From Subtercola lobariae (GTDB lineage: Bacteria > Actinomycetota > Actinomycetes > Actinomycetales > Microbacteriaceae): a stretch of DNA of 64,000 nt. A model generated the notes under the pieces. The model was not told the DNA's origin, ran no database searches, and saw nothing but the letters and a program-made list of their open reading frames with translations. Position 1 is the stretch's first letter. Each line of letters starts with the position of its first letter. Positions 8,927-54,357 of this stretch are shown here, piece after piece. The stretch covers positions 620,001 to 684,000 of the forward strand of contig NZ_BMGP01000002.1 of assembly GCF_014640255.1 (NCBI RefSeq). The letters are read 5' to 3'. The position numbers and the translations under genes were made by a program.

Positions 8927-10222
8927 GTGACTACTCCGTTGTACCTCGGCGTTGCGCTCGATGGCGCCGGCTGGCATCCAGCAGCCTGGCGCGAACCGGA
9001 TGCCCGGCCCCTCGATCTCTTCGACGTGGGGTATTACACCGACCTGGTGCGCCTCGCCCGCTCGGCCGATGTCGACCTCGTCACCATCGAAGACGCGGTG
9101 GGATTGCAGACCTCGGGGTTCGGGCCTGCGCGCGAGCACGCCGAGAATGATCGCACCGAGACCGACCACGCCGAGAAAGACCGCACCGCGACCGATCGCA
9201 CCGACGAGGTGCGCGGCCGCCTCGACGCGGTCGTGCTCGCCAACGCCATCGCCCCGCGCGTGAGCGGAATCGGCCTGGTACCCACCGTCACCACCACCCA
9301 CACCGAGCCGTTCCACACTGCGACCGCCCTTCAGACCCTCGACTATGTGAGCGAAGGCTGGGCCGGCTGGCGCGTGCAGGTTTCGGGCAGGGCGCACGAA
9401 GCGCAGCACTTCGGTCGCCGAACGATCGCGCCGTTCGACGCGGCGGCCATCACGGGCGGCGACCCAGGGGCCCAAGCCCTGCTCGCCGAGCTGTTCGGTG
9501 AGGCGCGCGATGCCGTCGAGGTCGCCCGGCGGCTCTGGGACAGCTGGCAAGACGACGCCATCATCCGCGAGGTCGAAACCGGTCGCTTCATCGACCGCGA
9601 CAAGCTTCACTACATCGACTTCGTCGGCGAGTACTTCAGCGTGAAGGGCCCCTCGATCGTGCCACGCTCACCACAGGGTCAGCCGGTCGTGTTCGTGCTC
9701 GCCCATCAGAAAGTGCCCTACGAGCTCGCGGTCGCCGAAGCCGACATCGTGGCGATCACACCGCACACCGACGAGCACCTCGACCAGATTCTGAGTGAGC
9801 TGCGTGACGCCGAGCAGAGCGTCGAACGGCTCGCGGGCGCCCCGCTGCAGGTGTGGAGCGAAATCGTGGTGCTGATCGAAGAGACGGCTGCGGATGCCCG
9901 TACCGCCCTCGCCAGGCTGAACGACCTGCACGGCCAACCACTGGCATCCGACGCCCTCGTTCTCGCGGGTTCGCCGGCCGAGGTCGCCGACCAACTGCTG
10001 CACTGGTACCACCGCGGCATTTCGGGTGTGCGGTTGCGCCCCGCGCGACTGCCGCGAGATCTGCACGAGATCACCGAGAACATTATTCCGCTACTCGACC
10101 GGGCCGGCGTTCGCGACACCGCGCAAGGTGCGCACTCGTTGCGTGAGCGCCTCGGTTTCGGCGCAGCCCCCAATCGTTACGCGCCCGCCGAGGTCGCCCG
10201 CACAGAAAGCATCACCCGATGA
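8927..10222 (+). CDS. LLM-class flavin-dependent oxidoreductase, divergent subfamily
   Basis: This 431-aa protein starts at GTG. It has the LLM N-terminus (PLYLGVALDGAGWHP, VDLVTIEDAVGLQT), but the usual SLDxxSGGRxGWN motif is TLDYVSEGWAGW here. A charged, repetitive insert of about 25 residues near residue 65 (ENDRTETDHAEKDRTATDR) is absent from the other LLMs. The C-terminus (SLRERLGFG) is family-like. It is most similar in layout to the LLM at 42126. Its stop overlaps the next start (ATGA). It probably uses FMNH2 and O2 to attack an organosulfur or related compound; the substrate is unknown. Confidence 0.8.
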   Translation: MTTPLYLGVALDGAGWHPAAWREPDARPLDLFDVGYYTDLVRLARSADVDLVTIEDAVGLQTSGFGPAREHAENDRTETDHAEKDRTATDRTDEVRGRLDAVVLANAIAPRVSGIGLVPTVTTTHTEPFHTATALQTLDYVSEGWAGWRVQVSGRAHEAQHFGRRTIAPFDAAAITGGDPGAQALLAELFGEARDAVEVARRLWDSWQDDAIIREVETGRFIDRDKLHYIDFVGEYFSVKGPSIVPRSPQGQPVVFVLAHQKVPYELAVAEADIVAITPHTDEHLDQILSELRDAEQSVERLAGAPLQVWSEIVVLIEETAADARTALARLNDLHGQPLASDALVLAGSPAEVADQLLHWYHRGISGVRLRPARLPRDLHEITENIIPLLDRAGVRDTAQGAHSLRERLGFGAAPNRYAPAEVARTESITR

Positions 10223-11829
10223 GCACGCAGTCGCAGAGCACGCACCCGCAGAGCAGGCAGTTCCACAGCACACAGTTGCAAGCCACCCCACTGCAGCGGA
10301 GCACAGCTCGCACCGAAGACGGCCGCCCCCTGAAGCAGATCCACCTGGCTGCGCACTTTCCAGGCGTCAACCACACCACGGTGTGGAGCGACGGCAATCA
10401 GGCCAGCCAAGTGGCGTTCTCGTCGTTCCGACACTTCGCGCAAAACGCCGAGCGCGGCAAATTCGACTTTCTGTTTCTGGCCGAGGGCCTGCGCGTGCGC
10501 GAGCAGAAGGGGCTCATTCACGATCTCGACGTTGTCGGCAGACCGAACACCACGGCCATCCTCGCCGCCGTCTCTGCCGTCACCAGGCACATCGGGCTGG
10601 TCGGAACGCTGAGCGCCACCTTCAACGAACCCTACGAGCTCGCCCGTCAGCTCGCCTCGCTCGATCACGTCAGCGGCGGCCGGGCGGGCTGGAACATCGT
10701 GACCACGTCTGACGCGTTTCACGGCGAGAACTTTCGCAGGGGCGCCTACCTCGACCCGGCCGACCGGTACCGCCGGGCCGAAGAGTTTCTCGACGTGGCC
10801 AAGCAGCTCTGGAGCAGCTGGGCCGACGACGCCGTCATCGCTGATGCCGCCGCGGGCGAATTCGTGCGCCCCGGGGCCGTGCGCTCCATCGATCACCACG
10901 GGCCGCAGTTCGACGTGACGGGCCGGTTCACGACCCCGGTCAGCCCGCAGCGTTACCCGGTCATCGTGCAGGCCGGCGATTCGCCAGACGGCCGTGACTT
11001 CGCGTCGCAGAACGCCGAGGTGATTTTCTCGCGGCACTCCGAATACGAGGCGGGGCGGCAGTTCTACAGTGATGTTAAGGGCAGGCTGGATGCCGTGGGC
11101 CGAGACCGCGACTCCCTCAAGATTCTGCCCGCCGCCACCTTCATTCTGGGTGACACCGCCGATGAGGCTGCAGAACGTTCGCGCGAGGTCGGGCGGCTGC
11201 AGATCAGCCCGCAGACGGCCATCTCGTTTCTCGAGCAGGTGTGGGGCACTGATCTGTCGGGCTACGACGTGGATGGCCCGCTTCCGGCCACCGATCCGGT
11301 CGAAGACACCGCGGGAATCGCTCGCGGGCGAGTGCGGCAGTTCGCCGACCCGGTGGCCGTCTCGCGCGCGTGGCGTCAGCAGTCCGAGGCCGAGGGGCTG
11401 AGCATCCGGGAGCTGGTGATTTCGTTCGCCGCCAAACACACCTTCGTGGGTACGCCGGCGCAGGTGGCCGAGACGATCAATCGGCACGTGCAGAACGATG
11501 CGTCTGACGGGTTCGTCATTGTGGGTCACACCAGCCCGACCGGGCTCGACGAGTTCGTCGACACCGTGATTCCCGAGTTGCAGGAGCGCGGGGTGTACCG
11601 CCGCGACTACGACGAGGGGGCGACGCTGCGCCAGACGCTCGGGCTGCCGACACCGGTACCCCTGCGGGCGAGGGAGAAGGGCATGGGCAGCGCGGCTGTC
11701 GCGAGCGCCGCGGGTAGCGCAGCCCCGGGGGTGTCTGCCGGGGCCACGACATCCGCCTCTGGCGACACCGCCGACGGTGCATCCACCGTCGTGCTTGCGC
11801 ACTCTGCACCGGCGAGTACAGCGCGGTGA
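10219..11829 (+). CDS. LLM-class flavin monooxygenase, NtaA/SnaA/DszA family, with long tails
   Basis: This 536-aa protein contains a complete DszA-like core: LKQIHLAAHFPGVNHTTVW, FDFLFLAEGL, SLDHVSGGRAGWN, PVIVQAGDSPDGRDFA, VGTPAQVAETIN and LRQTLGLP. It exceeds the usual ~440-460 aa because of a Gln/Ser/Thr/His-rich N-terminal tail of about 35 residues and an Ala/Ser/Thr-rich C-terminal tail of about 50. The N-terminal ATG overlaps the upstream stop, so the tail is probably translated. DszA-type enzymes oxidise sulfones, EDTA/NTA or similar compounds using FMNH2 from a separate reductase. Confidence 0.85.
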   Translation: MSTQSQSTHPQSRQFHSTQLQATPLQRSTARTEDGRPLKQIHLAAHFPGVNHTTVWSDGNQASQVAFSSFRHFAQNAERGKFDFLFLAEGLRVREQKGLIHDLDVVGRPNTTAILAAVSAVTRHIGLVGTLSATFNEPYELARQLASLDHVSGGRAGWNIVTTSDAFHGENFRRGAYLDPADRYRRAEEFLDVAKQLWSSWADDAVIADAAAGEFVRPGAVRSIDHHGPQFDVTGRFTTPVSPQRYPVIVQAGDSPDGRDFASQNAEVIFSRHSEYEAGRQFYSDVKGRLDAVGRDRDSLKILPAATFILGDTADEAAERSREVGRLQISPQTAISFLEQVWGTDLSGYDVDGPLPATDPVEDTAGIARGRVRQFADPVAVSRAWRQQSEAEGLSIRELVISFAAKHTFVGTPAQVAETINRHVQNDASDGFVIVGHTSPTGLDEFVDTVIPELQERGVYRRDYDEGATLRQTLGLPTPVPLRAREKGMGSAAVASAAGSAAPGVSAGATTSASGDTADGASTVVLAHSAPASTAR

Positions 11830-12624
11830 CCCTCGACACTGACGCCGACGTTGTGCTCGTCGGCGGCGGCGCCATGGGCTCGGCGGCTGCCTGGCAGCTC
11901 GCTCGCGGAGGCCGATCTGTCACCCTGCTCGAGCGATTCGCCGCCGGACACACTAACGGCGCCTCGCACGGGGCATCGCGCAACCTCAACCTCAGCTACG
12001 CCGAACCGACCTACCTTGCGCTACTGGCCGAGGCGCTGCCGCTCTGGCGTGACCTCGAGGCCGAGACGGGCACCTCGCTGCTCGAGCAGGTGGGCATCGT
12101 GAACCACGGTGCGAATGCCGCATTCGACGAGGTGGCCCGTGCTCTCGAGGTGGCCGGCTTCGAGGCGCAGTTCGTGCAACCGAGCGAGGCCGAGCGGCGG
12201 TGGCCGGGCATCCGGTTCGACCAGCGTGTGCTGTTCACGCCGCAAGCCGGGCGTCTCAACGCCGATGCGGCCGTGACTGCATTGCAGCGGGCCGCCGCCG
12301 CACACGGGGCGCAGATTCGGTGCTGTCACCGATCCGGATGCCCGTACCTTTCGCTCAGACCCCGACCAGTTGCGGGCGCTGCAGCGCTACGCGCGCGAAT
12401 GGTTACCCGGAGTCGACCCCGACGCCTTCACCGAAATCAGTTGCACGTACACCACAACCCCAGACTCGAACTTCGTGCTCGACCGAGTGGGGGCAATCAC
12501 CGTAGGCGCGGGCTTCTCGGGCCACGGCTTCACGTTCACGCCCGCGATCGGCCGAGTGCTCGCCGACCTCGTTGAGGGCCGGCCGGCGCCCGCCCTCTTC
12601 GGCCTGGCGGCCGACCGCGGCTAA
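11826..12624 (+). pseudogene. Decayed sarcosine-oxidase-like FAD-dependent amine oxidase (SolA/DAO family)
   Basis: The N-terminal frame from GTG 11826 has a clear FAD-binding start (DVVLVGGGAMGSAAAWQLA) and GASHGASRNLNLSY, then loses homology after AAHGAQIR at about 12318. The C-terminal part continues in another frame (VTDPDARTFRSD, TTTPDSNFVLDR, GFSGHGFTFTPAIGRVLADL) to the TAA at 12622-12624. Monomeric sarcosine oxidases are about 390 aa, so roughly 100 residues of the middle are missing as well as the frame. The start overlaps the LLM stop, so it was once the third gene of this operon. Confidence 0.8.
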
Positions 12625-12655
12625 CGTCGGCCTGGCGGCCGCCCCCGGCTAACTC
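12600..12655. repeat. Imperfect 28-bp tandem duplication spanning two convergent stop codons
   Basis: Unit 12600-12627 (CGGCCTGGCGGCCGACCGCG...) is repeated at 12628-12655 with a few mismatches. One copy holds the TAA of the amine-oxidase pseudogene; the other holds the reverse-strand stop of the LLM at 12649. Confidence 0.75.
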
Positions 12656-13698
12656 GCGAGCGGCGCCAGAGCGCGCTCGCCGACGAGCGGAATGAGGTCA
12701 GCCGCGATGCGCTCGAGCTCCTCGTGCAGGGGTGACGACTGGATGAGCAAGAGGGTGAGCCCGGCATCCTGATACTGCAGAATACGCTCGGCGACCTGCT
12801 CGGGCGTGCCGACCAGATTCGGCCGCAGGCCACGCGTGCCGACCGAGTATTCGCGCTTGCTCAGCTCGACGTCGAGCTGCGAGTGCGCTCGAAACTCCTC
12901 GAACGACGCGTAACCGGGCGACCCGGGATCGACCGTGGTGATTCGCTCGAGTTCACGCTGCGCCTCGGCCTCGGTGTCGCGCACGATAACGTACGCCGCC
13001 ATGCCGAATTCGGCGAAGTCAGAACCCGAAATACGATTGCGTCGTTCGTTGAGGTCTGCGACTTTCGTTCGCACCTCATCCACCGAACCACCGTGCAGAA
13101 CGTACGAGTCTGCGAAGCCCGCGATGGCGTCACGGCCGGCCTCGCTCTCGCCGCCGGCGAAGATGGCCGGCAGCCGACCCGGCTTCGGCGAGAGAATCGC
13201 CTCATCGACACCGTAATACTGGCCCTTGTAGCTGAACGGCGTCTCGCTCCACATGCCCTTCAGAATCTCGACGAACTCGGTTGCCTGGGCGTACCGGGCG
13301 TCATGGGTGGTGAAGGTGCCGCCGTATTGCTTGGCCTCTTCGGCCCACCAGGCCGCGACAACGTTGAGAGCGAACCGGTTCGCACCGATGTCAGAGATCG
13401 TCGCCGAGGTCTTCGCGGCCACCGTCGGCAAATGAAAGCCGGGCCGAATGGCGGTCATTACGCGCAGATTGTCGGTCACGGCCAGAATCGCGCTGCTCAG
13501 CGCCCACGCCTCGAGGCTCGGTGCGTCGATTCCCTTGCGGTCGTTGAGGTAGAGCTCGGGAACGAGTGTGGTGTGAAAACCGAGACGGTCGGCCTGAATC
13601 GAGACCTGCTTGATGTAGTCCCACGTCGCGGGCATGCCCTCATCACCGACGTTGCGCAAGAATCCGCCGTAAACGGGTGTCCAGTATCCGAAATCCAT
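12649..13698 (-). CDS. LLM-class FMNH2-dependent monooxygenase, SsuD/SfnG-like
   Basis: This 349-aa protein belongs to the shorter alkanesulfonate/dimethylsulfone monooxygenase branch. Visible features are MDFGYWTPVYGGF, RVMTAIRPGFHLPTVAAK, RFALNVVAAWWAEEAKQYGG, HDARYAQATEFVEIL, and LPAIFAGGESEAGRDAIA. SsuD and SfnG cleave the C-S bond of sulfonates or oxidise dimethylsulfone using reduced FMN. It is the last gene of an operon reading from 17087 (LLM, hydrolase, metY, this gene). The exact substrate cannot be told from sequence. Confidence 0.8.
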   Translation of the reverse strand: MDFGYWTPVYGGFLRNVGDEGMPATWDYIKQVSIQADRLGFHTTLVPELYLNDRKGIDAPSLEAWALSSAILAVTDNLRVMTAIRPGFHLPTVAAKTSATISDIGANRFALNVVAAWWAEEAKQYGGTFTTHDARYAQATEFVEILKGMWSETPFSYKGQYYGVDEAILSPKPGRLPAIFAGGESEAGRDAIAGFADSYVLHGGSVDEVRTKVADLNERRNRISGSDFAEFGMAAYVIVRDTEAEAQRELERITTVDPGSPGYASFEEFRAHSQLDVELSKREYSVGTRGLRPNLVGTPEQVAERILQYQDAGLTLLLIQSSPLHEELERIAADLIPLVGERALAPLAS

Positions 13699-13730: not shown

Positions 13731-15158
13731 TTATGCGTGAGTCGCGTACGACTGAGCAGAATCTGTGTCAGCCGAGTCTGTGCCAGCCGAGTCTGTGTCA
13801 GCCGAGTCTGCGAGCGATTCGAAGGTGAGCAGGTCGAGCGAACGCCCGAGGTCGGCGATCAGATCGGCCGGGTCTTCGAGCCCGATCGACAGCCGAACTG
13901 TACCGTGCGAGAAGCCGGCTTCGACGAGTTGCTCTTCTGACAGGTGGCTGTGGGTCATGGTGGGCGGGTGGATGACCAGGCTGCGGGCATCTCCGATGTT
14001 CGCCACCAGGCGAAAGACCTGAAGCGAGTCGATGAATCGTTCGGCAGCCTCTTCACCGCCAGCCAGATCGAGTGAGAACACCGATCCGGTGCCTTTCGGC
14101 AGGTATTTCTGGCCGGCCGCGAACCAGCGGTTGCCTTCGAGGCCCGCGTAATGCACGGCGGTCACGGCAGGGTGCGAGCCAAGAAACTCTGCGACCGCGA
14201 GCGCGCTGGCCGTCTGGCGCTGCACCCTCAGATCGAGGGTCTCGATGCCCTGGATGATCTCGAAACTGTTGAAGGGCGACAACGACGGCCCGAGGTCGTG
14301 CACGAGTTTCGTCTTCGCATAGACCAGAAAGGCACTGCGTTCGCGCCCGAAGGCATTCCAGAGCGTCACATCGCTGACCCGCGGGTAGGGAGCAGTGAAC
14401 TGCGGCCAGCGCTCGGGCTCAGCTCCGAAATCGAAGGTGCCGAGGTCGACGATGATTCCCGCCAGCGAGTTGCCGTGCCCACCGAGAAACTTCGTGGCGG
14501 AGTGCACCACGAAATCGGCCCCGAAGTCTTTCGGCCGCTGCAGGTAGGGCGTGGCGATGGTGTTGTCGATGATCAACGGAACGCCCGCCGAGTGCGCGAT
14601 ATCGGCGATGTCTTGCACGGCCAGCACGCTGTTGATGGGGTTGCCGATCGACTCGGCGAAATAGGCGCGAGTCTCCGGCCGGGCGGCGGCCCGCCAGGCC
14701 TCGAGGTCGTCTTGGTCGACGAACGTCACGTCGATACCGAAATCGGCGAACGTGTCGGCAAGAAGGTCGACCGTTCCGCCGTACAACTGCCGGGCTGCAA
14801 CGATGTGCTCGCCCGCTTTGGCCAAGGTGAGCAGAGCAACGGCTGTGGCCGCTTGGCCCGACGAGACCGCCAAGGCTGCGACGCCGTCTTCGAGTGCGGC
14901 GACCCGCCGCTCGAGTGCTGTCTGCGTGGGGTTGCCCGTTCGCGAGTAGAGGTTGCCCACCTCACGCAGCGAAAAGATGTTCTTCGCCGATTGAAAACTG
15001 GCGAACTCGTACGCGACCGTCTGGTAGATCGGCACAACCGCGGGGTTCTGCGCTTCACCGGCGGTGAGGCCGGCATGAACCTGGTCGGTGGCGAAATTGG
15101 TCGACGGAGTAGAGGGCCCTGACGGCGCCGAAGATCCGGAGGCCGAGAGCGACGTCAC
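13731..15158 (-). CDS. metY: O-acetylhomoserine sulfhydrylase (MetY-type Cys/Met metabolism PLP enzyme)
   Basis: This 475-aa trans-sulfuration-family enzyme shows [53 protein letters not shown] and the PLP lysine in [11 protein letters not shown]. It makes homocysteine from O-acetylhomoserine and sulfide, or methionine from methanethiol. GTG start at 15158 overlaps the hydrolase stop (GTGA). The last ~25 residues are a low-complexity Asp/Ser/Ala/Thr tail encoded by 15-bp tandem repeats. Position between monooxygenase genes suggests it captures sulfur they release. A methionine gamma-lyase activity is a less likely alternative. Confidence 0.85.
13766..13812. repeat. 15-bp tandem repeats in the metY 3' end
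   Basis: The unit TCTGTGTCAGCCGAG occurs about three to four times with minor variation, always in frame. On the reverse strand it encodes repeated [10 protein letters not shown] in the C-terminal tail of MetY. Confidence 0.8.
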
Positions 15159-15889
15159 TTGATGCGCCGAGCGAGCGGCTGGTCAACACCTGCGCGCAAG
15201 GTCTCGAGATACTGCACGATCACCGCGGCGGTGGTGCGGTGAGTCGAATCGTTCAGCACGTCGTGCTTGGCGCCGTCGATGACCCAGACCTGGGCATCCG
15301 GATTCGACTCATACGTTGGCAGCGCCCCGTCGAGCGGGCTCAGTGAATCGGCCCCACCGTGAATCGCGAGAACGGGCACCGTCAGGGTGCTGAGATCGCG
15401 CGCAATACGATCGGCCTCGAGCGCCTCGGCGAATGAGCCGTGCGACACACCCGCATCAGCGTCGAGCACACCGCGATGCACGGGACAAGTCGTGCGTTCG
15501 AGCAGTTCAGACTCCCAGTCGTCGGTCACCGTCGAGGCGCCCGCTGTCGGGTAGCCGGCGAGGATGACCGCGGCAACGTCTGCCCCGAGCTGCCCAGCCA
15601 CGTCGACCGCAGCAACGGCTCCCACGTCAGAGCCGACGATGATCACCGGCGCCGTCAGCTCGTCACCGGCGATGCGCGCGCCGATTTCGCTGGCGACCTC
15701 GGCCTCACTGCCGAATGCGTCGGCGAACGCCACCACGGTGTACGAGTCGGCCGAGATGCGCGTGCCGAATCGGTTGTACACGTCGGCCGTCTCACCGCGG
15801 CCGCCGAGCACCACAACGGTGCCGCGAACGCGAAGATTCTCAGGGGCAGTCCACTCTCGCGAGTGCAGATTCGTCTGAACTGTGGTCAT
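15155..15889 (-). CDS. Alpha/beta hydrolase with Asp at the nucleophile position
   Basis: This 244-aa protein has an alpha/beta-hydrolase layout: RGTVVVLGGRGETADVY (oxyanion region), nucleophile elbow VGSDVGAV, acid in PVLAIHGGADSLSP and histidine in IDGAKHDVLND. The elbow reads G-S-D-V-G, so the third position is Asp88 rather than Ser. Haloalkane dehalogenases and epoxide hydrolases use Asp there, so an ordinary esterase is not certain. It is second in the four-gene operon and overlaps metY. Hydrolysis of a monooxygenase product or a conjugate is a reasonable guess. Confidence 0.75.
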   Translation of the reverse strand: MTTVQTNLHSREWTAPENLRVRGTVVVLGGRGETADVYNRFGTRISADSYTVVAFADAFGSEAEVASEIGARIAGDELTAPVIIVGSDVGAVAAVDVAGQLGADVAAVILAGYPTAGASTVTDDWESELLERTTCPVHRGVLDADAGVSHGSFAEALEADRIARDLSTLTVPVLAIHGGADSLSPLDGALPTYESNPDAQVWVIDGAKHDVLNDSTHRTTAAVIVQYLETLRAGVDQPLARRIK

Positions 15890-15935: not shown

Positions 15936-17087
15936 TCACACCGTTGCGAGCGCTTCGTTCGGGGTGCTGCGGTCGGGCGTGCTGAGGTCGTTCGCGCCGG
16001 CGTCGTTCGCGCTCACGTCGAGGCCCGATGCAGCAGCATCCGCCCGCACCCAGCCAAGAGCGGGAGCCACCTCGGTCGCCAGAAGTTCGAGCGCTCGAAT
16101 CGACGCGTCTAGGGTGGGCTTGCCCGGGTTGAACTGCGCCAGCAGATCGGTCGCGACGGGCAGCGCCTGCTCGCGGCTCAGCTGCTCGATCACCTGGTCG
16201 GGATGCCCGTAGAAGGCGTTGAACCGAAAGAGTGCATTCTCGAGGCTCTCTTCACCCAGGTCGAAGCCGCTGCGCTTTTTCATCGAGACGAGACTGTCGA
16301 GCACGCCGTCGCCGATGGAGCGCAGCGCCTCTTCGCGTGAGCCGGCGGTGAAGATGAGGCGAGACAGCCCGACACGCGGGGCGCGTCTGGCGACGGCGCC
16401 ATCTGAGTCCGACTGCGCTGAGCCCGACTGCTCGGCGACCGCAGCGAGGTACGCGTCGGCCCACGGGCGCTGCACCACATCGGTGGGTTCGCTGTGCCCG
16501 TAGGTCGCACGGTTCAGCAGCAGGTTGCTGCCGCCTGCCGCAGCGTAACGCGCGCCCTCTGCGCTGAACACGCCCTGCCAGATTCTGTTCGCGGCAAGGT
16601 CGGGCGAGTACGGCTTCGACTGCGGGCCGCCTTCGAACAGTGGATGACCGGCGAGCGCACTGCGCAACCGATCGAGCGCGGCAGTAGTCAGCTCGCGCTT
16701 CTGCTCAATGTCTTTGCCGAAGGCGCGATACGCGTCGGGGTCGTAGCCGCTGCCGACGCCCAGCTCGACCCGGCCGTTCGACAGCACATCGACGACGGCG
16801 ACGTCTTCGGCCAGGCGCAGCGGGTCTTCGAGGGGCAGAATCGTAATGGCCGTACCGAGGTGAATGCGCTCGGTTTTCGCTGCGACGTTCGACAGAAAGG
16901 TCCAGGGCGAGCCGAGGCCGCCGTTCGGTTCTGGTGAGAAGTGGTGCTGCGCCACCCATCCGGTGTCGAAGCCGAGCTCATCGGCGGCGATGAAGAGTTC
17001 TTGGGCGTTCAGATACGACTGCTTGAGGCTGGCACCGCCCTCGACGTGGGTGAGAAAGCCGAGCTTGAACTTCGATGCCTGCGACAC
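15936..17087 (-). CDS. LLM-class flavin monooxygenase, bacterial-luciferase-like branch
   Basis: This 383-aa protein begins KFKLGFLTHVEGGASLKQSYL and has FDTGWVAQHHFSPEPNGGLGSP, HLGTAITILPLEDPLRLAEDVAVVDVLSNGRVELGVGSG. This is the luciferase-like branch that differs from DszA-type enzymes. The last ~30 residues are Asp/Ala/Ser/Thr-rich tail. It is the first gene of the operon running to 12649 and is divergent from the MocR regulator at 17325, with motif-rich DNA between them. It needs FMNH2; substrate unknown. Confidence 0.8.
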   Translation of the reverse strand: MSQASKFKLGFLTHVEGGASLKQSYLNAQELFIAADELGFDTGWVAQHHFSPEPNGGLGSPWTFLSNVAAKTERIHLGTAITILPLEDPLRLAEDVAVVDVLSNGRVELGVGSGYDPDAYRAFGKDIEQKRELTTAALDRLRSALAGHPLFEGGPQSKPYSPDLAANRIWQGVFSAEGARYAAAGGSNLLLNRATYGHSEPTDVVQRPWADAYLAAVAEQSGSAQSDSDGAVARRAPRVGLSRLIFTAGSREEALRSIGDGVLDSLVSMKKRSGFDLGEESLENALFRFNAFYGHPDQVIEQLSREQALPVATDLLAQFNPGKPTLDASIRALELLATEVAPALGWVRADAAASGLDVSANDAGANDLSTPDRSTPNEALATV

Positions 17088-17146: not shown

Positions 17147-17167
17147 GTAACAAAGTGATCATTGTTG
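17147..17167. promoter_or_regulatory. GTAACAAA and ATTGTTG motifs in the LLM-mocR divergent promoter
   Basis: GTAACAAA is at 17147-17154 and ATTGTTG at 17161-17167. The same two words recur upstream of the LLM at 18882, and GTAACAAA recurs in other promoter regions of the cluster. The interval is AT-rich and lies between divergent starts at 17087 and 17325. Confidence 0.4.
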
Positions 17168-17324
17168 AAACAAACTGACACGAAAGTCAACAAAGTCGTT
17201 AGGCGCGCTAGCGTCACGGCTCGCACGCGTGCAACACATTACGTCGCGGCAGGCCGATTCTGTTCAACCGGTCAATATGATTGAGACAATAGTTGTGAAC
17301 ACGTCTGCCGAGGAGAGACCACGC

Positions 17325-18783: not shown

Positions 18784-18842
18784 TTTGTTACAGCAACAAT
18801 CGGTAAGAAATCCATTGTTGCGCCCTTCACGGGCAACAATGG
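18784..18842. promoter_or_regulatory. Motif-rich operator region before the LLM at 18882
   Basis: It contains TTTGTTAC (18784-18791, reverse of GTAACAAA), CAACAAT (18794-18800), and an inverted repeat CCATTGTTG (18812-18820) / CAACAATGG (18834-18842). The last pair forms 9-bp perfect arms 40 bp before the LLM start, suitable for a dimeric regulator such as the neighbouring MocR protein. Confidence 0.5.
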
Positions 18843-18881
18843 CGGTAACACATACGTCTACCCGTGGAGGAACGATCCCCT

Positions 18882-24424: not shown

Positions 24425-24430
24425 CCGACA

Positions 24431-45394: not shown

Positions 45395-45505
45395 GAGATG
45401 CTTCTGCGAAATTGCGAACTGAATTCTCGGCCCATGAACGCTCTGTTAGCGTTCGAATCGAGGCACCACACAGCTCACCATGCGCCCTATTTGAATCGAG
45501 ATTCG

Positions 45506-47080: not shown

Positions 47081-47084
47081 GCAC

Positions 47085-48077
47085 ATGACGACGACCAGCG
47101 TGGAACGACGCACGGCCCTGCTCGGCCTGCTTGGCAAACGAGTAGTGCAGATTCCCGTCGTTCTGCTGGTCGTCTCAATTCTGACGTTCTGGCTTCTGCA
47201 GGTGGTGCCTGGCAACCCCGGGCGAAACGCCCTTGGCCAATACGCGACCGCCGCACAGGTCACGGCCTGGAACCATGACAACGGCGTAGACGGCTCGCTC
47301 GTCACGCAGTATCTGCATTGGATCGGCGGATTCTTCGTCGGCGACTGGGGGCAGAGCCTCGTCTACTCCACCCCGGTCAGAGAGCTTGTGCTCGAAAGGC
47401 TCGGCAACTCGCTTCTGCTCGGGCTATACGCCTTCGTCATCATGGTGCCAGTCGCCATCGCCCTGGGTTCGGCGCAGGCCTACCGCGAGGGCAAACGAAG
47501 CGATCGAGCCATTACCGTCGGGCTGCTGTCGCTGTCGGCGATTCCAGAGTTCGTTGTCGGCGTGGTCTTGCTGCTCGTCTTCGCCGTCTGGCTTCGCGTC
47601 GTGCCCGTGCAGTCGGCCGCTGGCGCCTCGGGTGACTTCTTCGATCGACTGCGGGTTATGACGTTGCCAGCGGTCGTGCTCGCGCTCGGCTATCTCGCCG
47701 TCTTGACCAGAATGGTGCGAAGTGGCACCAGTGAGGCGATCACCTCGCAATTTCACCGAACCGCAGTGATCAAGGGCCTCTCGTCTGCCACGATCGTGCG
47801 CCGTCACGTCATTCGCAATGCGCTCGTGCCGACGCTCTCTGTACTCGGCATCTACCTCGGCACCCTGCTCGGTGGCAGTGTGATCGTCGAGACCCTGTTC
47901 AGTTACCCGGGATTGGGCGCGCTGATGGTCACAGCCGCCGACCGTAAAGATGTTCTGCTGCTCGAGAGCGGCGTCATGATCACCGGGGCCGTCTCCCTAC
48001 TTGCGCTCCTGTTCACCGATATCTGCTTCGTGCTCATGGATCCCCGGATCCGCTTCAACGCCCGGGAGACCAATTGA
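47085..48077 (+). CDS. ABC transporter permease (DppB-like)
   Basis: This 330-aa membrane protein has KRVVQIPVVLLVVSILTFWLLQ, VVPGNPGRNALG, and FHRTAVIKGLSSATIVRRHVIRNALVPTLSVLG (EAA loop). ATG 47085 is 5 bases after the binding-protein stop; the frame is open upstream within the previous gene. It overlaps the next permease (TTGA region at 48074). Confidence 0.85.
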   Translation: MTTTSVERRTALLGLLGKRVVQIPVVLLVVSILTFWLLQVVPGNPGRNALGQYATAAQVTAWNHDNGVDGSLVTQYLHWIGGFFVGDWGQSLVYSTPVRELVLERLGNSLLLGLYAFVIMVPVAIALGSAQAYREGKRSDRAITVGLLSLSAIPEFVVGVVLLLVFAVWLRVVPVQSAAGASGDFFDRLRVMTLPAVVLALGYLAVLTRMVRSGTSEAITSQFHRTAVIKGLSSATIVRRHVIRNALVPTLSVLGIYLGTLLGGSVIVETLFSYPGLGALMVTAADRKDVLLLESGVMITGAVSLLALLFTDICFVLMDPRIRFNARETN

Positions 48078-48958
48078 CAGCCACCATACCCAGATCTGCG
48101 GCGCCCACCGCCGAAAAACAAGGCCCGGTCACCGACGATGCAGGCGAGCGCCCCAGCCGCATCCGCAGTCTGCTGAAGCGGCCCTCGTTCGTCATCAGTG
48201 TGCTCATCATCGTGTGGTGGGTGGTGGCCGCCCTCGGCTGGCAGATTGTGGGTCTCGAACCCTACGCCAAGACGGGCGACCTTCTCGCCAGCCCAGACTG
48301 GGCTCATCCCTTCGGTACTGACAACCTCGGCCGCGATATGTTTGCACGGGTCGTGGCCGGCGCTGGCCCGGCGTTGCTCGTCGGCCCACTCGGTGCTCTG
48401 CTGGCTACCGTCGTCGGCGGAACCCTGGGTCTCGTTGCCGGGTATTACCGCGGTGCCGTCGACACTCTGATGATGCGGTTCTTCGATGTCATTCTCGCGT
48501 TGCCGAGCCTCATCTTTCTCATCGTGCTGGTCGGCGCTTTCGGCATCAGTACTGCCGCGCTCATCTTGATCGTCGGAATATTGTTCGCCCCCGGAATCGC
48601 CCGGATCATTCGTGCCGCAACGCTCGTCGAGATGGGTAAGAGTTATGTGACGGCAGCCAAACTGCAGGGCGAAAAAGACTCTCGCATTCTGTTTCGGGAG
48701 TTGCTCCCCAATATTCTGCCGACCCTGGTCATCCAGGCGACGCTGAGCTTGGCGGCCGCCGTGTTCATCACCGCCTCTCTCTCGTTTCTCGGCCTAGGAG
48801 AGCAGCCGCCCTCTGCAGACTGGGGGCTCGCAATCAACGAGAACCGCATCTATCTGCAAACGGCATGGTGGACTGTCGTCTTTCCCGCTATCGGAGTCGC
48901 GTCGCTCGTTGTGGCGGCGAACCTCATCGCCGACAACATCAGGGAGGTGTCTCGATGA
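48074..48958 (+). CDS. ABC transporter permease (DppC-like)
   Basis: This 294-aa membrane protein shows LLASPDWAHPFGTDNLGRDMFARVVAGAG, and the EAA loop SYVTAAKLQGEKDSRILFRELLPN with FLGLGEQPPSADWGLAI. The start is probably TTG at 48074, overlapping the previous stop. It overlaps the next ATPase gene (ATGA). Confidence 0.83.
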   Translation: MTATIPRSAAPTAEKQGPVTDDAGERPSRIRSLLKRPSFVISVLIIVWWVVAALGWQIVGLEPYAKTGDLLASPDWAHPFGTDNLGRDMFARVVAGAGPALLVGPLGALLATVVGGTLGLVAGYYRGAVDTLMMRFFDVILALPSLIFLIVLVGAFGISTAALILIVGILFAPGIARIIRAATLVEMGKSYVTAAKLQGEKDSRILFRELLPNILPTLVIQATLSLAAAVFITASLSFLGLGEQPPSADWGLAINENRIYLQTAWWTVVFPAIGVASLVVAANLIADNIREVSR

Positions 48959-50559
48959 CCACGAGCGTCGTCTCGGTCGACAACCTGCGTGTGTCGTACT
49001 CGACCTCCCGATCGTCGGTCGAGGTCGTGCGCGGTGTCAGCTTCGACATCGCGCCCGGCGAGTCATACGGCCTGGTGGGTGAGTCAGGCTCGGGCAAGAG
49101 CACCATTGCGTTGGCGCTCACGGGGCACCGTGTCGCCGGTGCCACCGTGACAGCCGACTCTCTGAATGTGGCCGGCCTTGATGTGCTCGACCTCTCACAA
49201 TCGGAGCTTCGAGCGTTTCGTGCACGCAAGATCGGCGTTGTCTACCAAGAACCCGCCCGGGCCCTCAACCCGACGATGACCGTCGGCGCTCAGGTCGCAG
49301 AGGTCTTTCGGCTTCGCGGCGATGACCGGGGTCTCGCTCGGCGTGAAACAGTCGCCGCACTCGACCGAGTCGGTCTGCCAGACCCCGCCACCTTTGCATC
49401 TCGGTATCCGCACGAATTGTCTGGCGGCCAGCAGCAGCGTGTGGTCATCGCGATGGCTCTGGCTGTGTCGCCCGAACTCCTCATTCTCGACGAGCCGACG
49501 ACCGGGCTCGACGCCCGCGTCGAAACCGAGGTGATGGCGCTGATCGATCAGTTGCAAATCGAACTGGGCTTCGCGACACTGCTGATCAGTCACAACCTGC
49601 CACTGGTTGCCGCGCATTGCCAACGAATCGGAGTTCTTGAGCGCGGCGTGCTCGTCGAACACGGGTCTGCCGCCGACGTTCTGCTGAACCCTTCGCACGC
49701 CTACTCGAAAAAACTCGTTGCGGCGCTGCCAGATCTCGCGTTCGCGTCTGCTCGAAACCGAGATTCGGCCGATGAAACCGATCCCCTTGTCACAGTGACC
49801 GGCCTCTCTAAGTCATACGGCGGCAAGCGTGCCCTCGACAACGTGTCGCTCACCATTGGCCGGAATGAGATTCTCGGCATTGTGGGGCAGTCTGGAAGCG
49901 GAAAATCGACGTTCGGGCGGGCCCTGGCAGGGCTCATTCGGTACGACGGCCAAGTGAGCTTCACCGACTCCTTCGAGCGTCGACGCCCTGCCCGGCCGCT
50001 GGTACAGATGGTGTTTCAGAGCCCCGATGCCTCGCTCAACCCCAGGCGCACCGTCCGTCAGGTTTTCGCTCGCTCGATCGAGCTGCTCGGCGGAACGGGC
50101 ACCGTCGAAATGCTCGCCGAGTCGACGGGCCTCGATCTAGCGCTGCTGAAACTACTGCCCCACGAACTCTCAGGCGGCCAAAAACAGCGTGTCGCCATCG
50201 CCCGCGCCTTCGCCGGGCCCGTTCCCCTGGTCATCTGCGACGAACCAACGAGCGCCCTCGACGTGTCTGTTCAGGCGCTCGTCTTAGACCTCCTCGAAGA
50301 GCTGCAAGAGCGAACCGGCGTATCGTTCGTGTTCATCTCGCACGACCTGGCGGTGGTGCGCCGCCTCGCCGACCGCATCGGCGTTCTGCACGAGGGCAGG
50401 CTCGTCGATCTCGCCCCTACCGAACAACTTTTCTCAGGTGATGTCGATGCTTACACCGAGTCGTTGATCGCGTCGGCGGTCGACCTCCGGGCGCGCGGTG
50501 TCAGAACCCCAGCGGTCGCTGCGCCCGGTGACGGATGGCAAGCCAACCGAGCTCGTTAG
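48955..50559 (+). CDS. Fused double-ATPase ABC transporter subunit (DppD-DppF fusion)
   Basis: This 534-aa protein has two complete ATPase domains. The first has GESGSGKST, LSGGQQQRVVIAMAL, LLILDEPTTGLD; the second (from about residue 280) has GQSGSGKST, LSGGQKQRVAIARAF, LVICDEPTSALD. Fused versions such as YejF-like proteins occur in the peptide/glutathione importer families. Its stop overlaps the stop of the convergent DszC-like gene by 3 bases. ATG 48955 overlaps the permease stop. Confidence 0.87.
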   Translation: MTTSVVSVDNLRVSYSTSRSSVEVVRGVSFDIAPGESYGLVGESGSGKSTIALALTGHRVAGATVTADSLNVAGLDVLDLSQSELRAFRARKIGVVYQEPARALNPTMTVGAQVAEVFRLRGDDRGLARRETVAALDRVGLPDPATFASRYPHELSGGQQQRVVIAMALAVSPELLILDEPTTGLDARVETEVMALIDQLQIELGFATLLISHNLPLVAAHCQRIGVLERGVLVEHGSAADVLLNPSHAYSKKLVAALPDLAFASARNRDSADETDPLVTVTGLSKSYGGKRALDNVSLTIGRNEILGIVGQSGSGKSTFGRALAGLIRYDGQVSFTDSFERRRPARPLVQMVFQSPDASLNPRRTVRQVFARSIELLGGTGTVEMLAESTGLDLALLKLLPHELSGGQKQRVAIARAFAGPVPLVICDEPTSALDVSVQALVLDLLEELQERTGVSFVFISHDLAVVRRLADRIGVLHEGRLVDLAPTEQLFSGDVDAYTESLIASAVDLRARGVRTPAVAAPGDGWQANRAR

Positions 50560-51776
50560 CGGTACCCAGACGGAATGGGCGCCTCACCATTGATGAAGTA
50601 CCGCCCGAGCTCGTCGCGCTTGTACGCCACCGGGTCGTGCAGGCTGAGCGTTCGTACATTGCGCCAGAACCGATCGAACGCGAGATTCGTCGCCGTCGAC
50701 CGAGCCCCAGTGAGCTCGAAGAGCCCACTGCTCACGGCGAGCGCCACGTCAGTCGAGGTGACTTTGGCGCTCGCGATGATCTCGGCGACAGCGGCACGCT
50801 GCTCGGCCGTGGCATCATCGCCCAGCGCGTAGAGCCACTCGAGCGCATTCACGCCCCGCTCCACCAGAGCCGACACCGCTTGAACATTCGCCAGATAGTC
50901 ACCGTAGGCGTTCAGGATGAACGGCTCGTCATGCCCGTTCGACACTGTCGAGTGCAACGCGGGCCGGGTGTGGTTGCGCGTATAGTCCGCGGCTTCGAGC
51001 AGCGCCCCTTCGGCGATGGCGAGATGCAGAATGCCGAAGGTGAGCTGAAAGTGCAGCACACCCACCGACTGCCGCGGGGTCTGGCCGAGAGTGACATCGC
51101 CGAAGCGTTTGAGAATCTCGGCATCGGTGATGGCGAGCTGGTCGAGAGTGATCGACTGGCTGGCCGAGAGGCGTTGGCCCAGAACATCCCACTCGCCCGT
51201 GAACGACACGCTCGGCGACTGCGGGTCGACGATGACGACGACCATTTCGTTCGTCTCAGAGTCGATGGTGATCGAGAAGAGGCGATCGGCCACGGGCGCC
51301 CCGGTGGCGAATCCGCTGTCGCCGTGCACGACGTGCCCACCGTCGGTCGCCGTGGTCTTCGGGTAGCCGACGGCACGATTGCTGCCCGGGCTCGCCCACA
51401 ACCAGCGGTTCTGCACGGTGTCGCGCAGCGCCTTCTCGCTCTGCGGCGTCTCGAAGGTCTGAATGTAACGCAACCACACGTAGTGGTACCCCAAAATGTG
51501 CGCGATCGAGGCGTCGCTGCGCGCGATGATGCGCACGAGCTGCGAGGTGGTTCGCCAGGGCAGGCCACCTCCTCCGATCGCTTCAGGCAGACCGGCTGTC
51601 AGCAGACCACTCGAGCGCAGCAACTGCACTTCGGCGACGGGCAGAGCATTCGCCCGGTCGCGTTCGACGATATCTGCACGCAGCTGGTCGGCGACGCCCT
51701 GCGCAAGGGCGTACCAGCGCAGATGGTCGGCCGGTTCGACGTTCGAAGGGTCGGGTAGAAGGTCGAGACTACTCAT
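50556..51776 (-). CDS. DszC/SfnB-like flavin monooxygenase of the acyl-CoA dehydrogenase fold
   Basis: This 406-aa protein has the acyl-CoA dehydrogenase fold but the DszC signature at the C-terminus (FDRFWRNVRTLSLHDPVAYK). It also shows LLRSSGLLTAGLPEAIGGGG, ASIAHILGYHYVWLR and GDSGFATGAPVADRLF. DszC oxidises dibenzothiophene to its sulfone with FMNH2 and O2; SfnB acts in the dimethylsulfone pathway. It is third in a DszA-DszC-DszC-like operon (54357-50556). The thioether substrate is unknown. Confidence 0.8.
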   Translation of the reverse strand: MSSLDLLPDPSNVEPADHLRWYALAQGVADQLRADIVERDRANALPVAEVQLLRSSGLLTAGLPEAIGGGGLPWRTTSQLVRIIARSDASIAHILGYHYVWLRYIQTFETPQSEKALRDTVQNRWLWASPGSNRAVGYPKTTATDGGHVVHGDSGFATGAPVADRLFSITIDSETNEMVVVIVDPQSPSVSFTGEWDVLGQRLSASQSITLDQLAITDAEILKRFGDVTLGQTPRQSVGVLHFQLTFGILHLAIAEGALLEAADYTRNHTRPALHSTVSNGHDEPFILNAYGDYLANVQAVSALVERGVNALEWLYALGDDATAEQRAAVAEIIASAKVTSTDVALAVSSGLFELTGARSTATNLAFDRFWRNVRTLSLHDPVAYKRDELGRYFINGEAPIPSGYR

Positions 51777-53002
51777 TTTTTTACTCCAACAACCCAGGCA
51801 TAGGCCGGGGCTGCACCGTTCAGCAGGTGGTCGCCCACGTTGCGCGTCTTATAGATTCCAGGGTTGTGCACCGAGATGGTGCGGGCGTTGCGCCAATGTC
51901 GGTCGAGGGTCTTCGCCGAATCGACCGACGATGCTCCGCCCACCTCGAACAGTCGCGTCGCGGCTCCGAGCACCGTGTCGACCACCGTGCTGTGAGCCCG
52001 CGACACCGTGATCTCGAGCGCGTCGAAGAGCTCGGCGGCCGCAAAACCCTGTTCGTCTCGCGCCGCGTTCAGTCGATCGAACTGCGCTGCCGCCGCTAGC
52101 ACTACCGCATCGGCCGCGAACGACGCTGCAGAGAGCTGGCCCACCACCTGCTGCACCAGCGGGTCTTCGCGCGCGGTCGCTCCACTCCCGTGACTGAACA
52201 CACGGCTTCGCCGGGTCACGAACTCGACTGCGTCACGCAGCACTGCACGCCCGATGCCTGCCAGTGAGGCGAGCAGCACCTCTTGGTAGAAAGCGATCAT
52301 GTAGTTCGGTGCGCGGTCGGCGAACCAGAAGATGTCGTCGGGATCGACCGGAACAGCGTCGAGCACGGTGGTGCCTGAGCCGGTCATCCGCTGACCGAAG
52401 CCGGCCCAGTCGTCGACCAGCTCGACTCCTTCGTGACGGGCATCCACCAGAGCGAACGCCCGCTCGCCGCGCTCATCGATGACGCCGATAGCGATGTGAT
52501 CGGCGAACAGGCTGCCGGTCGAGTAGTGCTTGGTTCCCGTGATGAACCAGCCGTTCTCGGCATCTCCGCTCACCGTCGTTTCGACAGCGCCGAGTGCGCC
52601 CGAACCGATCTCGGTAACGGCATTGCCGATGATCGCCCCATCGACCACAGCCCGCAGCCAACGGTCGCGCACCGGCGAATCGACGTCGTTCAGGCGCTCT
52701 TCGACCATGCCGAAGTGCGCGCGCAGCAGCTGCGGCAGATTCGAATCGGCCGTACCCAGCTCGATCAGCAGCTCGAAGAACTGGCTGCTGGATGCCCCGC
52801 CTCCCCCATCGGCGACCGCGATGCGCACCGCGCCGAAGCCCACCTCGCGCAACCACGCTACGGGCTCGTAGGGCAGAACGCGGCCGCGTTCACGCTCGAC
52901 GGCGGTGGCCGCGATGCGATCGAACACGGACCGAAATCGCGTCGCCAGCTCGTCGTAGGCCACATCATCGACATTCGGCCTGCTGAAGGTGCCGCTCGTC
53001 AT
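51773..53002 (-). CDS. DszC-like flavin monooxygenase of the acyl-CoA dehydrogenase fold
   Basis: This 409-aa protein shows WLREVGFGAVRIAVADGGGGASS, GSGALGAVETTVSGD, HYSTGSLFADHIAIGVID, and the C-terminal LDRHWRNARTISVHNPGIYK, again the DszC/SfnB type end. It overlaps both neighbours (ATG/TGA overlaps at 51773 and 52999), so the three genes are co-translated. Two DszC-like proteins differ in sequence, suggesting either a heteromeric enzyme or separate substrates. Confidence 0.8.
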   Translation of the reverse strand: MTSGTFSRPNVDDVAYDELATRFRSVFDRIAATAVERERGRVLPYEPVAWLREVGFGAVRIAVADGGGGASSSQFFELLIELGTADSNLPQLLRAHFGMVEERLNDVDSPVRDRWLRAVVDGAIIGNAVTEIGSGALGAVETTVSGDAENGWFITGTKHYSTGSLFADHIAIGVIDERGERAFALVDARHEGVELVDDWAGFGQRMTGSGTTVLDAVPVDPDDIFWFADRAPNYMIAFYQEVLLASLAGIGRAVLRDAVEFVTRRSRVFSHGSGATAREDPLVQQVVGQLSAASFAADAVVLAAAAQFDRLNAARDEQGFAAAELFDALEITVSRAHSTVVDTVLGAATRLFEVGGASSVDSAKTLDRHWRNARTISVHNPGIYKTRNVGDHLLNGAAPAYAWVVGVKK

Positions 53003-54357
53003 TTCTCTCCAAACGCTCCGCGGTACCGCGCGGCAGGGTGTCGTTCGTTCAGCAGGTCAGTGCCGAACAGTTTCTGTCGCAATGTGCCCGGCGTGTATTC
53101 GGTCTGGGCGAGCCCGCGCCGTTGCAGCACCGGAACGACCTCGTCGATGAACTCTTCATAAGAGCTCGGGATGCGCCAGTTGGTGATATTGATTCCGTCG
53201 ACCCCGGCGGCCCGCCACACCTCGAGCTGGTCGGCGATCTGCTCGGGGGTACCCACGACTCGGCCGCGCCGCGACAGAATCGCGCCGAGATCGGCCACGG
53301 TGGGCTCGCGGTCGGTGATCGCGCGGCTCAGCCACTGCAGAATGCCCTGGCTCGCATTCGTCTTGATGTCGACCAGCCGCGTTTCGGGCGGGTACGGTGT
53401 GCCGTCGGGTTTGGTGCCGAAGTTCATGTGCGTGAGATACCCGTCAAGGCTTGCGAACTCGTCGAGCTCAGCCTCTTTCGCCCGCGCCTCTTCTTCTGTG
53501 CGGCCGATCACGAAGGTCAGGCCCTGAAAGAACTTGATGTCGTCAGGGTTGCGGCCCGCCGCCACGGCTAGGGCGCGCGTCTCGGCGATGCCCTCGGCTG
53601 CGACCTCGGGCGACGGCGCGGCGATGAAGACCGCCTCGGCGTTGGCCGCGGCGAAGGCCTTGCCCGCTGCCGACGATCCGGCCTGGTAGAGCACCGGGGT
53701 GCGCTGCGGTGAAGGCGAGGGCAGATGCGGGCCTTCGACCTTGTACCGTTTGCCTTCGTGATAGATCTTGTGAATCTTCGAGGCGTCGGCATAGATACCT
53801 GATTCGCGGTCACGAACGAGGGCCCCGTCATCCCACGACCCCTCCCACAGCTTGTAGGTGACGTCAACGTATTCTCGGGCCCATTCATACCGCTCGTCAT
53901 GCTCAGTCAGGGCGTCGTAACCGAAGTTGCGGGCCGCGTTCTCCATAGTGCCGGTCACGATGTTCCAGGCGATGCGGCCCTTCGAGATGTGGTCGAGGGT
54001 CGAGACCTGACGGGCGAAGTTGAATGGATGCTCTTGCAGCACCCCACTCGTGAAAGCGAGCCCGAGGTGCTCGGTGTTCACGGCGAGCGCAGAAAGCAGA
54101 ACCGACGGGTCGTTGCTCGGAATCTGCAGCCCCTCTCGCGCATTGAGCACGTACGGGCTGTCGGCAGGGCCGTAGAGCCCCACCACATCGGCGAAGAACA
54201 CGGCATCGAACTTGCCGCGCTCGAGTGTCTTGACGAGGTCGATCCACACCTCGACATCGTTGAAATCGGCTTGCCGGGCGTCTGGATGCCGCCACTGGCC
54301 GTGCTGAATATGTGAACCGGTATTCATCACGAATGCGTTGAACCGCAGTGCTGTCAT
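52999..54357 (-). CDS. LLM-class flavin monooxygenase, DszA-like
   Basis: This 452-aa protein shows LRFNAFVMNTGSHIQHGQWRH, FDAVFFADVVGLYGPADSPY, TLDHISKGRIAWNIVTG, PVLYQAGSSAAGKAFAAANA, VGTPEQIADQLEVW and TLRQKLFGTDLL. DszA cleaves the sulfone to a sulfinate. I start at ATG 54357 (MTALRF); a longer frame reaches 54678 but would overlap the EamA gene and has low-complexity sequence. It is the first gene of the three-gene operon that ends at 50556. Confidence 0.85.
   Translation of the reverse strand: MTALRFNAFVMNTGSHIQHGQWRHPDARQADFNDVEVWIDLVKTLERGKFDAVFFADVVGLYGPADSPYVLNAREGLQIPSNDPSVLLSALAVNTEHLGLAFTSGVLQEHPFNFARQVSTLDHISKGRIAWNIVTGTMENAARNFGYDALTEHDERYEWAREYVDVTYKLWEGSWDDGALVRDRESGIYADASKIHKIYHEGKRYKVEGPHLPSPSPQRTPVLYQAGSSAAGKAFAAANAEAVFIAAPSPEVAAEGIAETRALAVAAGRNPDDIKFFQGLTFVIGRTEEEARAKEAELDEFASLDGYLTHMNFGTKPDGTPYPPETRLVDIKTNASQGILQWLSRAITDREPTVADLGAILSRRGRVVGTPEQIADQLEVWRAAGVDGINITNWRIPSSYEEFIDEVVPVLQRRGLAQTEYTPGTLRQKLFGTDLLNERHPAARYRGAFGEK

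Follow-up and report, generated by a model that had tools for sequence, protein, structure and literature searches.

A 64,000-nucleotide stretch of the Subtercola lobariae genome (contig 2, positions 620001–684000; referred to here as the window) carries an island of genes for luciferase-like flavin monooxygenases (LLMs) that is real and exceptional among the genomes compared. The island probably scavenges organosulfur compounds and supplies reduced sulfur to a cell without recognizable sulfate or sulfite reduction. The genome (4.09 Mb in 22 contigs) is 98.67% complete. A preliminary description had placed twelve intact LLMs between 8927 and 54357, and all 12 open reading frames (ORFs; Table 1) score above the gathering threshold of the Pfam family Bac_luciferase (PF00296), by which LLMs were called. 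The two MetY-type enzymes, two Dpp-like importers, MetNIQ importer and MocR regulator that it named were likewise recovered by profile or domain matches. The region itself is confirmed but its boundaries were too narrow: a PatB-type lyase, a broken LLM and, in the stretch of the same genome just left of the window (L001), a further LLM and MetY lie to the left.

Counting the broken copy, the genome contains 41 LLM matches, and its densest stretch holds 13 in 46 kb (14 in 57 kb). By comparison, 5000 random placements of 41 genes gave a maximum of 7 in 46 kb, and three relatives with 35–63 LLMs, the genus mate G001 and two genomes selected for their high LLM counts (G099 and G102), peak at 6, 7 and 7, respectively. 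The eight long LLMs share 23–39% pairwise identity, except for the DszA_5/DszA_6 pair at 52%, and are scattered over several clades; they are therefore not the product of one tandem expansion. Many neighboring genes overlap by 4 bases in an operon-like manner, as in the run KPN_3–DszA_5–DszA_6–MetY_2–DszA_d7–DUF427–catalase (gaps of 10, −4, 4, −4, −4 and −4).

Sulfate and sulfite reduction

The S. lobariae genome has no match to PF01077, which covers the sulfite reductases, or to PF01507, the 3′-phosphoadenylylsulfate/adenylylsulfate reductases, compared with 11 and 14 matching genomes, respectively, among 14 controls. Judged from these families, the bacterium seems to lack the means of reducing either sulfate or sulfite, and, as neither family is matched, sulfite as an end product would be wasted here. 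The earlier transfer of the sulfite-yielding functions of DszA, SfnG and SsuD is not supported, given these two families and the SsuD, SfnG, SfnB and DszC cut-offs, none of which is reached. The LLMs more probably yield a thiol, which MetY would then capture.

Among 150 genomes of the family Microbacteriaceae, PF01077 is matched in 42, and frame lengths and paired stretches divide these into 13 with sulfite reductase and 29 with NirB-like proteins. By this reading, 137 of the 150 genomes (reduced and incomplete ones counted) lack a two-domain sulfite reductase, and dependence on reduced sulfur may be common in Microbacteriaceae. A two-domain sulfite reductase is also missing from 8 of the 12 named genomes with a DszA_5-type core (11 Microbacteriaceae and one Nocardioides; genomes of unstated completeness). 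In genomes of at least 2.8 Mb, the median number of NtaA-type candidates is 7.5 with sulfite reductase (n = 12) and 16 without (n = 92; Mann–Whitney p 0.005; size-adjusted t −5.3 over all 150 genomes), these being first-look counts from which kinship was not removed. A tie between LLM number and sulfite reductase loss across the family is suggestive only.

Classification of the monooxygenases

At least four sequence types had been proposed for the LLMs. NCBIfam profiles with curated cut-offs sort the 12 into three, the first of which is spread over several clades: eight NtaA/DmoA/DszA-type enzymes (TIGR03860), one SfnG-like enzyme and three TIGR04027/KPN_01858-like enzymes, none being best placed as SsuD. 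Six of the eight long LLMs exceed the TIGR03860 cut-off (279.7 bits), with d1 (215) and DszA_d7 (237) below it. The SfnG-like enzyme reaches 234 bits against 382.95 for SfnG (TIGR04021), and it also gives the best SsuD score of the 12, 152.5 bits against 518.2 (TIGR03565). The three KPN-type LLMs score 198–254 bits against 412.9 for TIGR04027; across 296 genomes of the phylum nothing exceeds that cut-off, and three of the seven places above 150 bits, too few for statistics, are in this window.

In the tree, DszA_3 groups with CmoJ and 3sdo (support 1.00) as the sole island LLM in the CmoJ clade, and DszA_5 and DszA_6 form a clade of their own, weakly beside BdsA. A guess from PDB bit scores that DszA_5 and DszA_6 are CmoJ orthologues was rejected, as the tree places both outside that clade. 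The preliminary description had named families whose company would speak against a sulfur role; here one LLM, DszA_8, goes part of the way by joining a dehalogenase.

Partner enzymes and a proposed route for sulfur

The two enzymes first described as DszC-like do belong to the SfnB/DszC superfamily, with SfnB (TIGR04022) as the best family for both, but lie far below the equivalog cut-offs (236 and 274 bits against 430.9 for SfnB; 230.6 and 116.5 bits against 850 for DszC, NF043015). No DszB desulfinase was found among the window ORFs scanned; for this and the other partner families below, absence refers to those ORFs. The window MetYs exceed the TIGR01326 cut-off of 495.1 bits (520.5 and 511.1), with the L001 MetY below it at 478. 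MetN contains NIL and ABC domains and fits TIGR02314 best, at 311 bits against an equivalog cut-off of 499.7. The substrate-binding proteins (SBPs) of the two Dpp-like importers give 56 and 43 bits against TIGR04028 (468.5); they score higher as GsiB or nickel-type proteins, still below those cut-offs.

Sulfur capture is repeatedly linked to LLMs: four of the seven strong loci of the genome for Cys/Met pyridoxal-phosphate (PLP) enzymes (PF01053) adjoin one. One MetY group (node 0.71) unites MetY_2, the L001 MetY, a MetY at C5:155510, two G001 MetYs and those from seven loci of relatives, and stands apart from the MetX-adjacent MetY and C3:642902. Three of the four LLM-adjacent MetYs of S. lobariae are inside this group and MetY_1 is outside. 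In G001, a PatB homologue (71%) lies between two MetYs. MetX, CBS, a cystathionine gamma-synthase-type enzyme and methionine synthase are all present above curated cut-offs, and with them thiol or sulfide could in principle be converted to homocysteine, methionine and cysteine. Eight flavin reductases (PF01613) are encoded in the genome, none of them in the window. The proposal of import, C–S cleavage and capture in one region is supported by the MetY, MetNIQ, PatB-type and SfnB/DszC-like neighbors, by gene groups recurring in relatives and by the dibenzothiophene response of Rhodococcus IGTS8, in which the same protein families (NtaA-type, SfnG, MetQ/MetN and MetY) are upregulated (PMC8557817); the sulfite-type products that it included are probably wrong.

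Gene content, family placement, recurring linkage, the unmatched reductase families and a shared motif, all read directly from the sequence, lead us to predict the following route. Uptake of small organosulfur compounds would fall to MetNIQ and the two Dpp-like importers. The LLMs, both short (KPN/SfnG-like) and long (NtaA/DszA/CmoJ-type) and dependent on reduced flavin mononucleotide (FMNH2) from the unlinked flavin reductases, would act with the SfnB/DszC-like enzymes to oxidize the sulfur or the adjacent carbon and cleave C–S bonds, as CmoO and then CmoJ do in the salvage of S-alkylcysteine. By analogy, the order would be short LLM, long LLM, MetY. The MetY-type enzymes would add the freed thiol or sulfide to O-acetylhomoserine, yielding homocysteine, or methionine from methanethiol, and CBS and the cystathionine synthase-type enzyme, encoded elsewhere, would produce cysteine by transsulfuration in the reverse direction. 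Methanethiol is usable by MetY. A methanethiol assimilation pathway in Corynebacterium is announced in the title of PMC7279501.

An intergenic motif shared across the island

Of all 8-mers, GTAACAAA is shared by the largest number of the island's intergenic pieces, 5 of 16, a number reached in none of 200 shuffles. Its six window copies are all intergenic, with 0.22 expected. The genome contains 20 copies, against 27 for the reversed control: seven are in 34 kb of island, one is approximately 60 bp before another LLM ORF, and the other 12, of which several are inside ORFs, including the methionine synthase of locus L152, have no LLM beside them by eye. As the window itself was the source from which the motif was derived, independent evidence is limited to copies elsewhere in the genome. 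Copies flank the MocR gene, making MocR a candidate reader of GTAACAAA, and regulation by sulfur is predicted. An Rfam search of the window gave a single match, a tRNA at 1–59, and no riboswitch.

The L152 methionine synthase (G000:C6:19000-23500) matches NF006589 at 658 bits; the ORF upstream of it resembles a DUF1852 partner.

Recurrence in relatives

Leifsonia, Microbacterium, Frondihabitans and Curtobacterium supply the closest named genomes found via one LLM, and 13 loci with a DszA_5-type LLM were compared from these four Microbacteriaceae genera (at most 10 kb on each side; L018 and L021 are short contigs; antisense ORF artefacts in GC-rich loci were left out of the counts). A DszA_6-type LLM is beside the DszA_5-type LLM in all 13, accompanied by an SBP5/Dpp importer in 12, a KPN_3-type LLM in 11 and DUF427 in 10, so that the KPN-LLM/DszA/DszA core is present in 11 of 13. 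MetY_2-type (7/13), DszA_d7-type (6/13) and catalase (3/13) genes are less constant; the KPN_3, DszA_5, DszA_6, MetY_2 and DszA_d7 types are all together in five loci. A d7-type LLM adjoining a MetY also occurs in contig 5 of S. lobariae itself, in G001, in Leifsonia and in Microbacterium.

The island of G001 is smaller and rearranged, with several families in common. This would suit a bystander pile-up, in which a recombination-prone locus gathered LLM operons that have no joint function, as would the signs of decay in the window, a broken LLM and a shortened DAO-family oxidoreductase (11826–12575) without an internal segment that G001 has. Such an origin is nevertheless highly improbable: G001 and, to some extent, other genera repeatedly retain the partners MetY, PatB, DszA_d7 and NADb9, and the motif is specific to the cluster.

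In Proteobacteria, KPN-type LLMs were followed in seven plasmid regions, chosen from 15 listed of 132 records. A TIGR04028 SBP is present in four of the seven, with permease and ATPase genes annotated in three of these four; one region is near a CysB-family regulator, one adjoins a MetQ-type protein and one holds five LLMs in a row close to SfnB. CMD or alkylhydroperoxidase partners occur in four of the seven; none was found among the window ORFs scanned.

Several further features were observed. In actinobacteria and Paenibacillaceae, DUF427 proteins are repeatedly encoded close to DszA_5-type LLMs (13 of 80 loci). NADb9 (PF13454) has homologues (52–74% identity) in the vicinity of LLMs in L003, L010 and G001, and it could be a partner oxidoreductase. 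Importer 2 is 75–91% identical to its counterpart in Frondihabitans (L010), with the adjacent LLMs at only 57–67%; from these identities, importer 2 alone was possibly recombined or transferred. A Paenibacillus relative (L017) that appeared to have MetNIQ beside DszA_5-type LLMs was rejected, as its binding protein is of the glycine-betaine type OpuAC.

Evidence against and competing explanations

A number of observations weigh against the scavenging of organosulfur to thiol proposed here. Sulfite reductase is present in 4 of the 12 genomes with a DszA_5-type core; the core thus occurs with and without the reductase and is independent of sulfite reduction. Within the five genera of mixed state, loss of sulfite reductase and LLM number are weakly linked: counts differ little in four genera (18 v 20, 28 v 29, 17 v 16 and 2 v 4) and markedly in the fifth (10 v 21). 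No copy of GTAACAAA was found in 140 kb of sequence from three genus mates or in 12 loci of other genera. MetY_2-type genes are not present in 6 of the 13 related loci as fetched. The GNAT acetyltransferase and M20 deacetylase of the Cmo pathway have no counterpart among the window ORFs scanned. The remaining three points, namely binding proteins at distant homologues, sulfite release in Rhodococcus and the placement of DszA_8, also bear on two competing explanations.

In classical scavenging, the LLMs and DszC/SfnB-like enzymes would release sulfite from sulfonates, sulfones and thiophenes, in the manner of SsuD, SfnG and the 4S pathway, and an unrecognized enzyme would reduce it. The NMT1-type fold is shared by sulfonate importers, where sulfite release is usual. 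Of four proteobacterial loci with distant DszA_5-type homologues, three have an NMT1-type binding protein beside the LLM and the other, L023, has SBP_bac_5; the SfnG-like enzyme, the SfnB/DszC-like pair and the weak placement of DszA_5/6 beside BdsA point the same way. According to the accessible text of PMC8557817, organic sulfur in Rhodococcus IGTS8 leaves as sulfite and a sulfite reductase is present. This explanation is unlikely for S. lobariae, with PF01077 and PF01507 both unmatched in a 98.7% complete genome, no desulfinase among the scanned ORFs and equivalog cut-offs that are not reached.

Alternatively, in a mixed catabolic island, several LLMs would serve carbon use or detoxification (of halo-aromatics, alkanes, chelators or polymers) and the MetY-linked ones alone would serve sulfur. 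DszA_8 groups with the hexachlorobenzene dehalogenase HcbA1 (0.95), near LadA/DmoA; an aromatic-ring hydroxylase-type gene and dioxygenase-like genes are nearby in the window; and the nearest solved relative of KPN_3 is 8K74, reported, in the text available of PMC11354265, as a polyacrylate oxygenase. Even the DszA_8 operon has two SfnB/DszC-like genes, however, and GTAACAAA is common to five intergenic regions of the island, and we regard this division of roles as rather doubtful.

The scavenging of organosulfur to thiol can also be extended, tentatively and with less confidence than for the island alone, to the family: Microbacteriaceae would have given up most sulfate and sulfite reduction, banks of LLMs would dealkylate organosulfur to thiol and the LLM-linked MetY group would fix the thiol. 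If that reading holds, the island would be the densest form of such a thiol-release economy among the genomes compared.

Comparison with known systems

By its sequence, the island is not a member of the Cmo, 4S, SsuD or SfnG systems, whose defining features fail here; that it works in a Cmo-like manner is proposed as a separate claim, by analogy. We take CmoJ and CmoO to be YtnJ and YtmO of Bacillus subtilis. In the portion of PMC10863075 available, CmoO and CmoJ dealkylate S-alkylcysteine by sulfoxidation and then flavin-dependent C–S cleavage to a sulfenic acid. The likeness lies in a two-flavoenzyme route that recovers reduced sulfur and in the YtnJ-clade DszA_3; the island instead has a TIGR04027-type short LLM, MetY and many paralogues. 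An alpha/beta hydrolase is encoded at 15155.

The Dsz/4S system of Rhodococcus IGTS8 shares DszA- and DszC-like families with the island, and the accessible text of PMC8557817 lists NtaA-type, SfnG, MetQ/MetN and MetY proteins, the same families as in the island, as upregulated on dibenzothiophene. The island differs in having no DszB-like gene seen, in missing the DszC cut-off and in gathering its genes in one place, and, according to the same text, IGTS8 has CysH and CysI, unlike this genome. The TIGR04028 SBP/TIGR04027 LLM system (KPN_01854/KPN_01858) resembles the island in pairing an SBP_bac_5-type importer with a TIGR04027-like LLM; the island scores below both cut-offs, has no CMD/alkylhydroperoxidase partner among the scanned ORFs and adds long LLMs and MetY.

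Comparison extends to two other bacterial groups. The enzyme expansions of SAR202 are reportedly paralogous flavin monooxygenases. The sulfur enzymes of Candidatus Pelagibacter are centered on dimethylsulfoniopropionate, and we know of no LLM island in that organism. SAR202 is described in the available part of PMC5395668 as having expanded enzyme families directed at organic matter; multiple enzyme families are thus in common, and a single sulfur island is not indicated in that part. Candidatus Pelagibacter, per the part of PMC5069961 at hand, has no assimilatory sulfate reduction and depends on reduced sulfur compounds, and so shares the reliance but uses other enzymes. Among the open-access literature matches listed, there was no comparable LLM island and no Microbacteriaceae-wide loss of sulfite reductase.

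The many LLMs lead to a testable nutritional hypothesis, organic matter as an obligatory source of reduced sulfur. Given the 137 of 150 genomes without a two-domain sulfite reductase, organic sulfur turnover by Microbacteriaceae may rest on such enzymes. For biochemists, the island offers grouped, uncharacterized candidate C–S oxygenases together with importers and acceptors.

Features of the island

Table 1. Genes and motif copies of the island (window coordinates unless L001 is given; FAD, flavin adenine dinucleotide)
Feature	Position	Strand	Remarks
MetY-type gene (third island MetY)	L001 16851-18269		left of window
LLM outside window	L001 18266-19870		left of window
Broken NtaA/DszA-type LLM	935..2039 (approx.)	-	frames shifted, mid-profile missing
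PatB-type PLP C–S lyase	7508..8740	-	divergent from first LLM operon; best family TIGR04350, 288 bits (cut-off 340)
Divergent NtaA/DszA-type LLM (d1)	8927..10222	+	Pfam, NCBIfam
NtaA/DszA-type LLM (DszA_2)	10219..11829	+	Pfam, NCBIfam
Shortened DAO-family FAD oxidoreductase	11826..12575	+	internal deletion relative to G001 homologue
SfnG-like LLM	12649..13698	-	best solved relative 8vw6, 589 bits
MetY-type enzyme 1 (MetY_1)	13731..15158	-	above TIGR01326 cut-off
Alpha/beta hydrolase	15155..15889	-	domain match
TIGR04027/KPN_01858-like LLM (KPN_1)	15936..17087	-	Pfam, NCBIfam
GTAACAAA motif	17147..17154	+	KPN_1/MocR divergent intergenic region
MocR-type regulator	17229..18695	+	GntR and aminotransferase domains
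GTAACAAA motif	18784..18791	-	before DszA_3
LLM of CmoJ/YtnJ clade (DszA_3)	18864..20321	+	NCBIfam, tree
DUF1684 protein	20654..21520	-	domain match
GTAACAAA motif	21522..21529	+	between KPN_2 and DUF1684
TIGR04027-like LLM (KPN_2)	21566..22594	-	Pfam, NCBIfam
Two GTAACAAA motifs (22693, 22713)	22693..22720	+	KPN_2/importer 1 divergent intergenic region
Importer 1: SBP_bac_5, 2 permeases, 2 ATPases	22790..28284	+	Dpp-like
NtaA/DszA-type LLM (DszA_4)	28370..29707	+	Pfam, NCBIfam
FAD aromatic-ring-hydroxylase-type monooxygenase	29760..31526	+	profile match
FAD/NAD(P)-binding protein PF13454 (NADb9)	31674..33677	-	domain match
GTAACAAA motif	34034..34041	-	before metQNI
MetQ-MetN-MetI importer	34133..36865	+	MetN carries NIL domain
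TIGR04027-like LLM (KPN_3)	37002..38060	+	Pfam, NCBIfam
NtaA/DszA-type LLM (DszA_5)	38071..39408	+	Pfam, NCBIfam, tree
NtaA/DszA-type LLM (DszA_6)	39405..40742	+	tandem relative of DszA_5, 52%
MetY-type enzyme 2 (MetY_2)	40747..42129	+	member of LLM-linked MetY group
Divergent NtaA/DszA-type LLM (d7, DszA_d7)	42126..43475	+	recurrent MetY neighbor
DUF427 protein	43472..43975	+	domain match
Catalase	43972..45240	+	domain match
Importer 2: SBP_bac_5, 2 permeases, fused double ATPase	45398..50559	+	Dpp-like
SfnB/DszC-superfamily enzyme 1	50556..51776	-	profile match
SfnB/DszC-superfamily enzyme 2	51773..53002	-	profile match
HcbA1/LadA/DmoA-type LLM (DszA_8)	52999..54678	-	profile, tree; true start probably near 54360, from onset of family match
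EamA-type transporter	54566..55723	-	domain match

The tRNA at the start of the window is cut by its left edge, with the L001 LLM on one side and the broken LLM on the other. An Abi_2-family (Abi-like) protein, possibly a phage defence gene, is encoded at 2171–3184 and adjoins the broken LLM.

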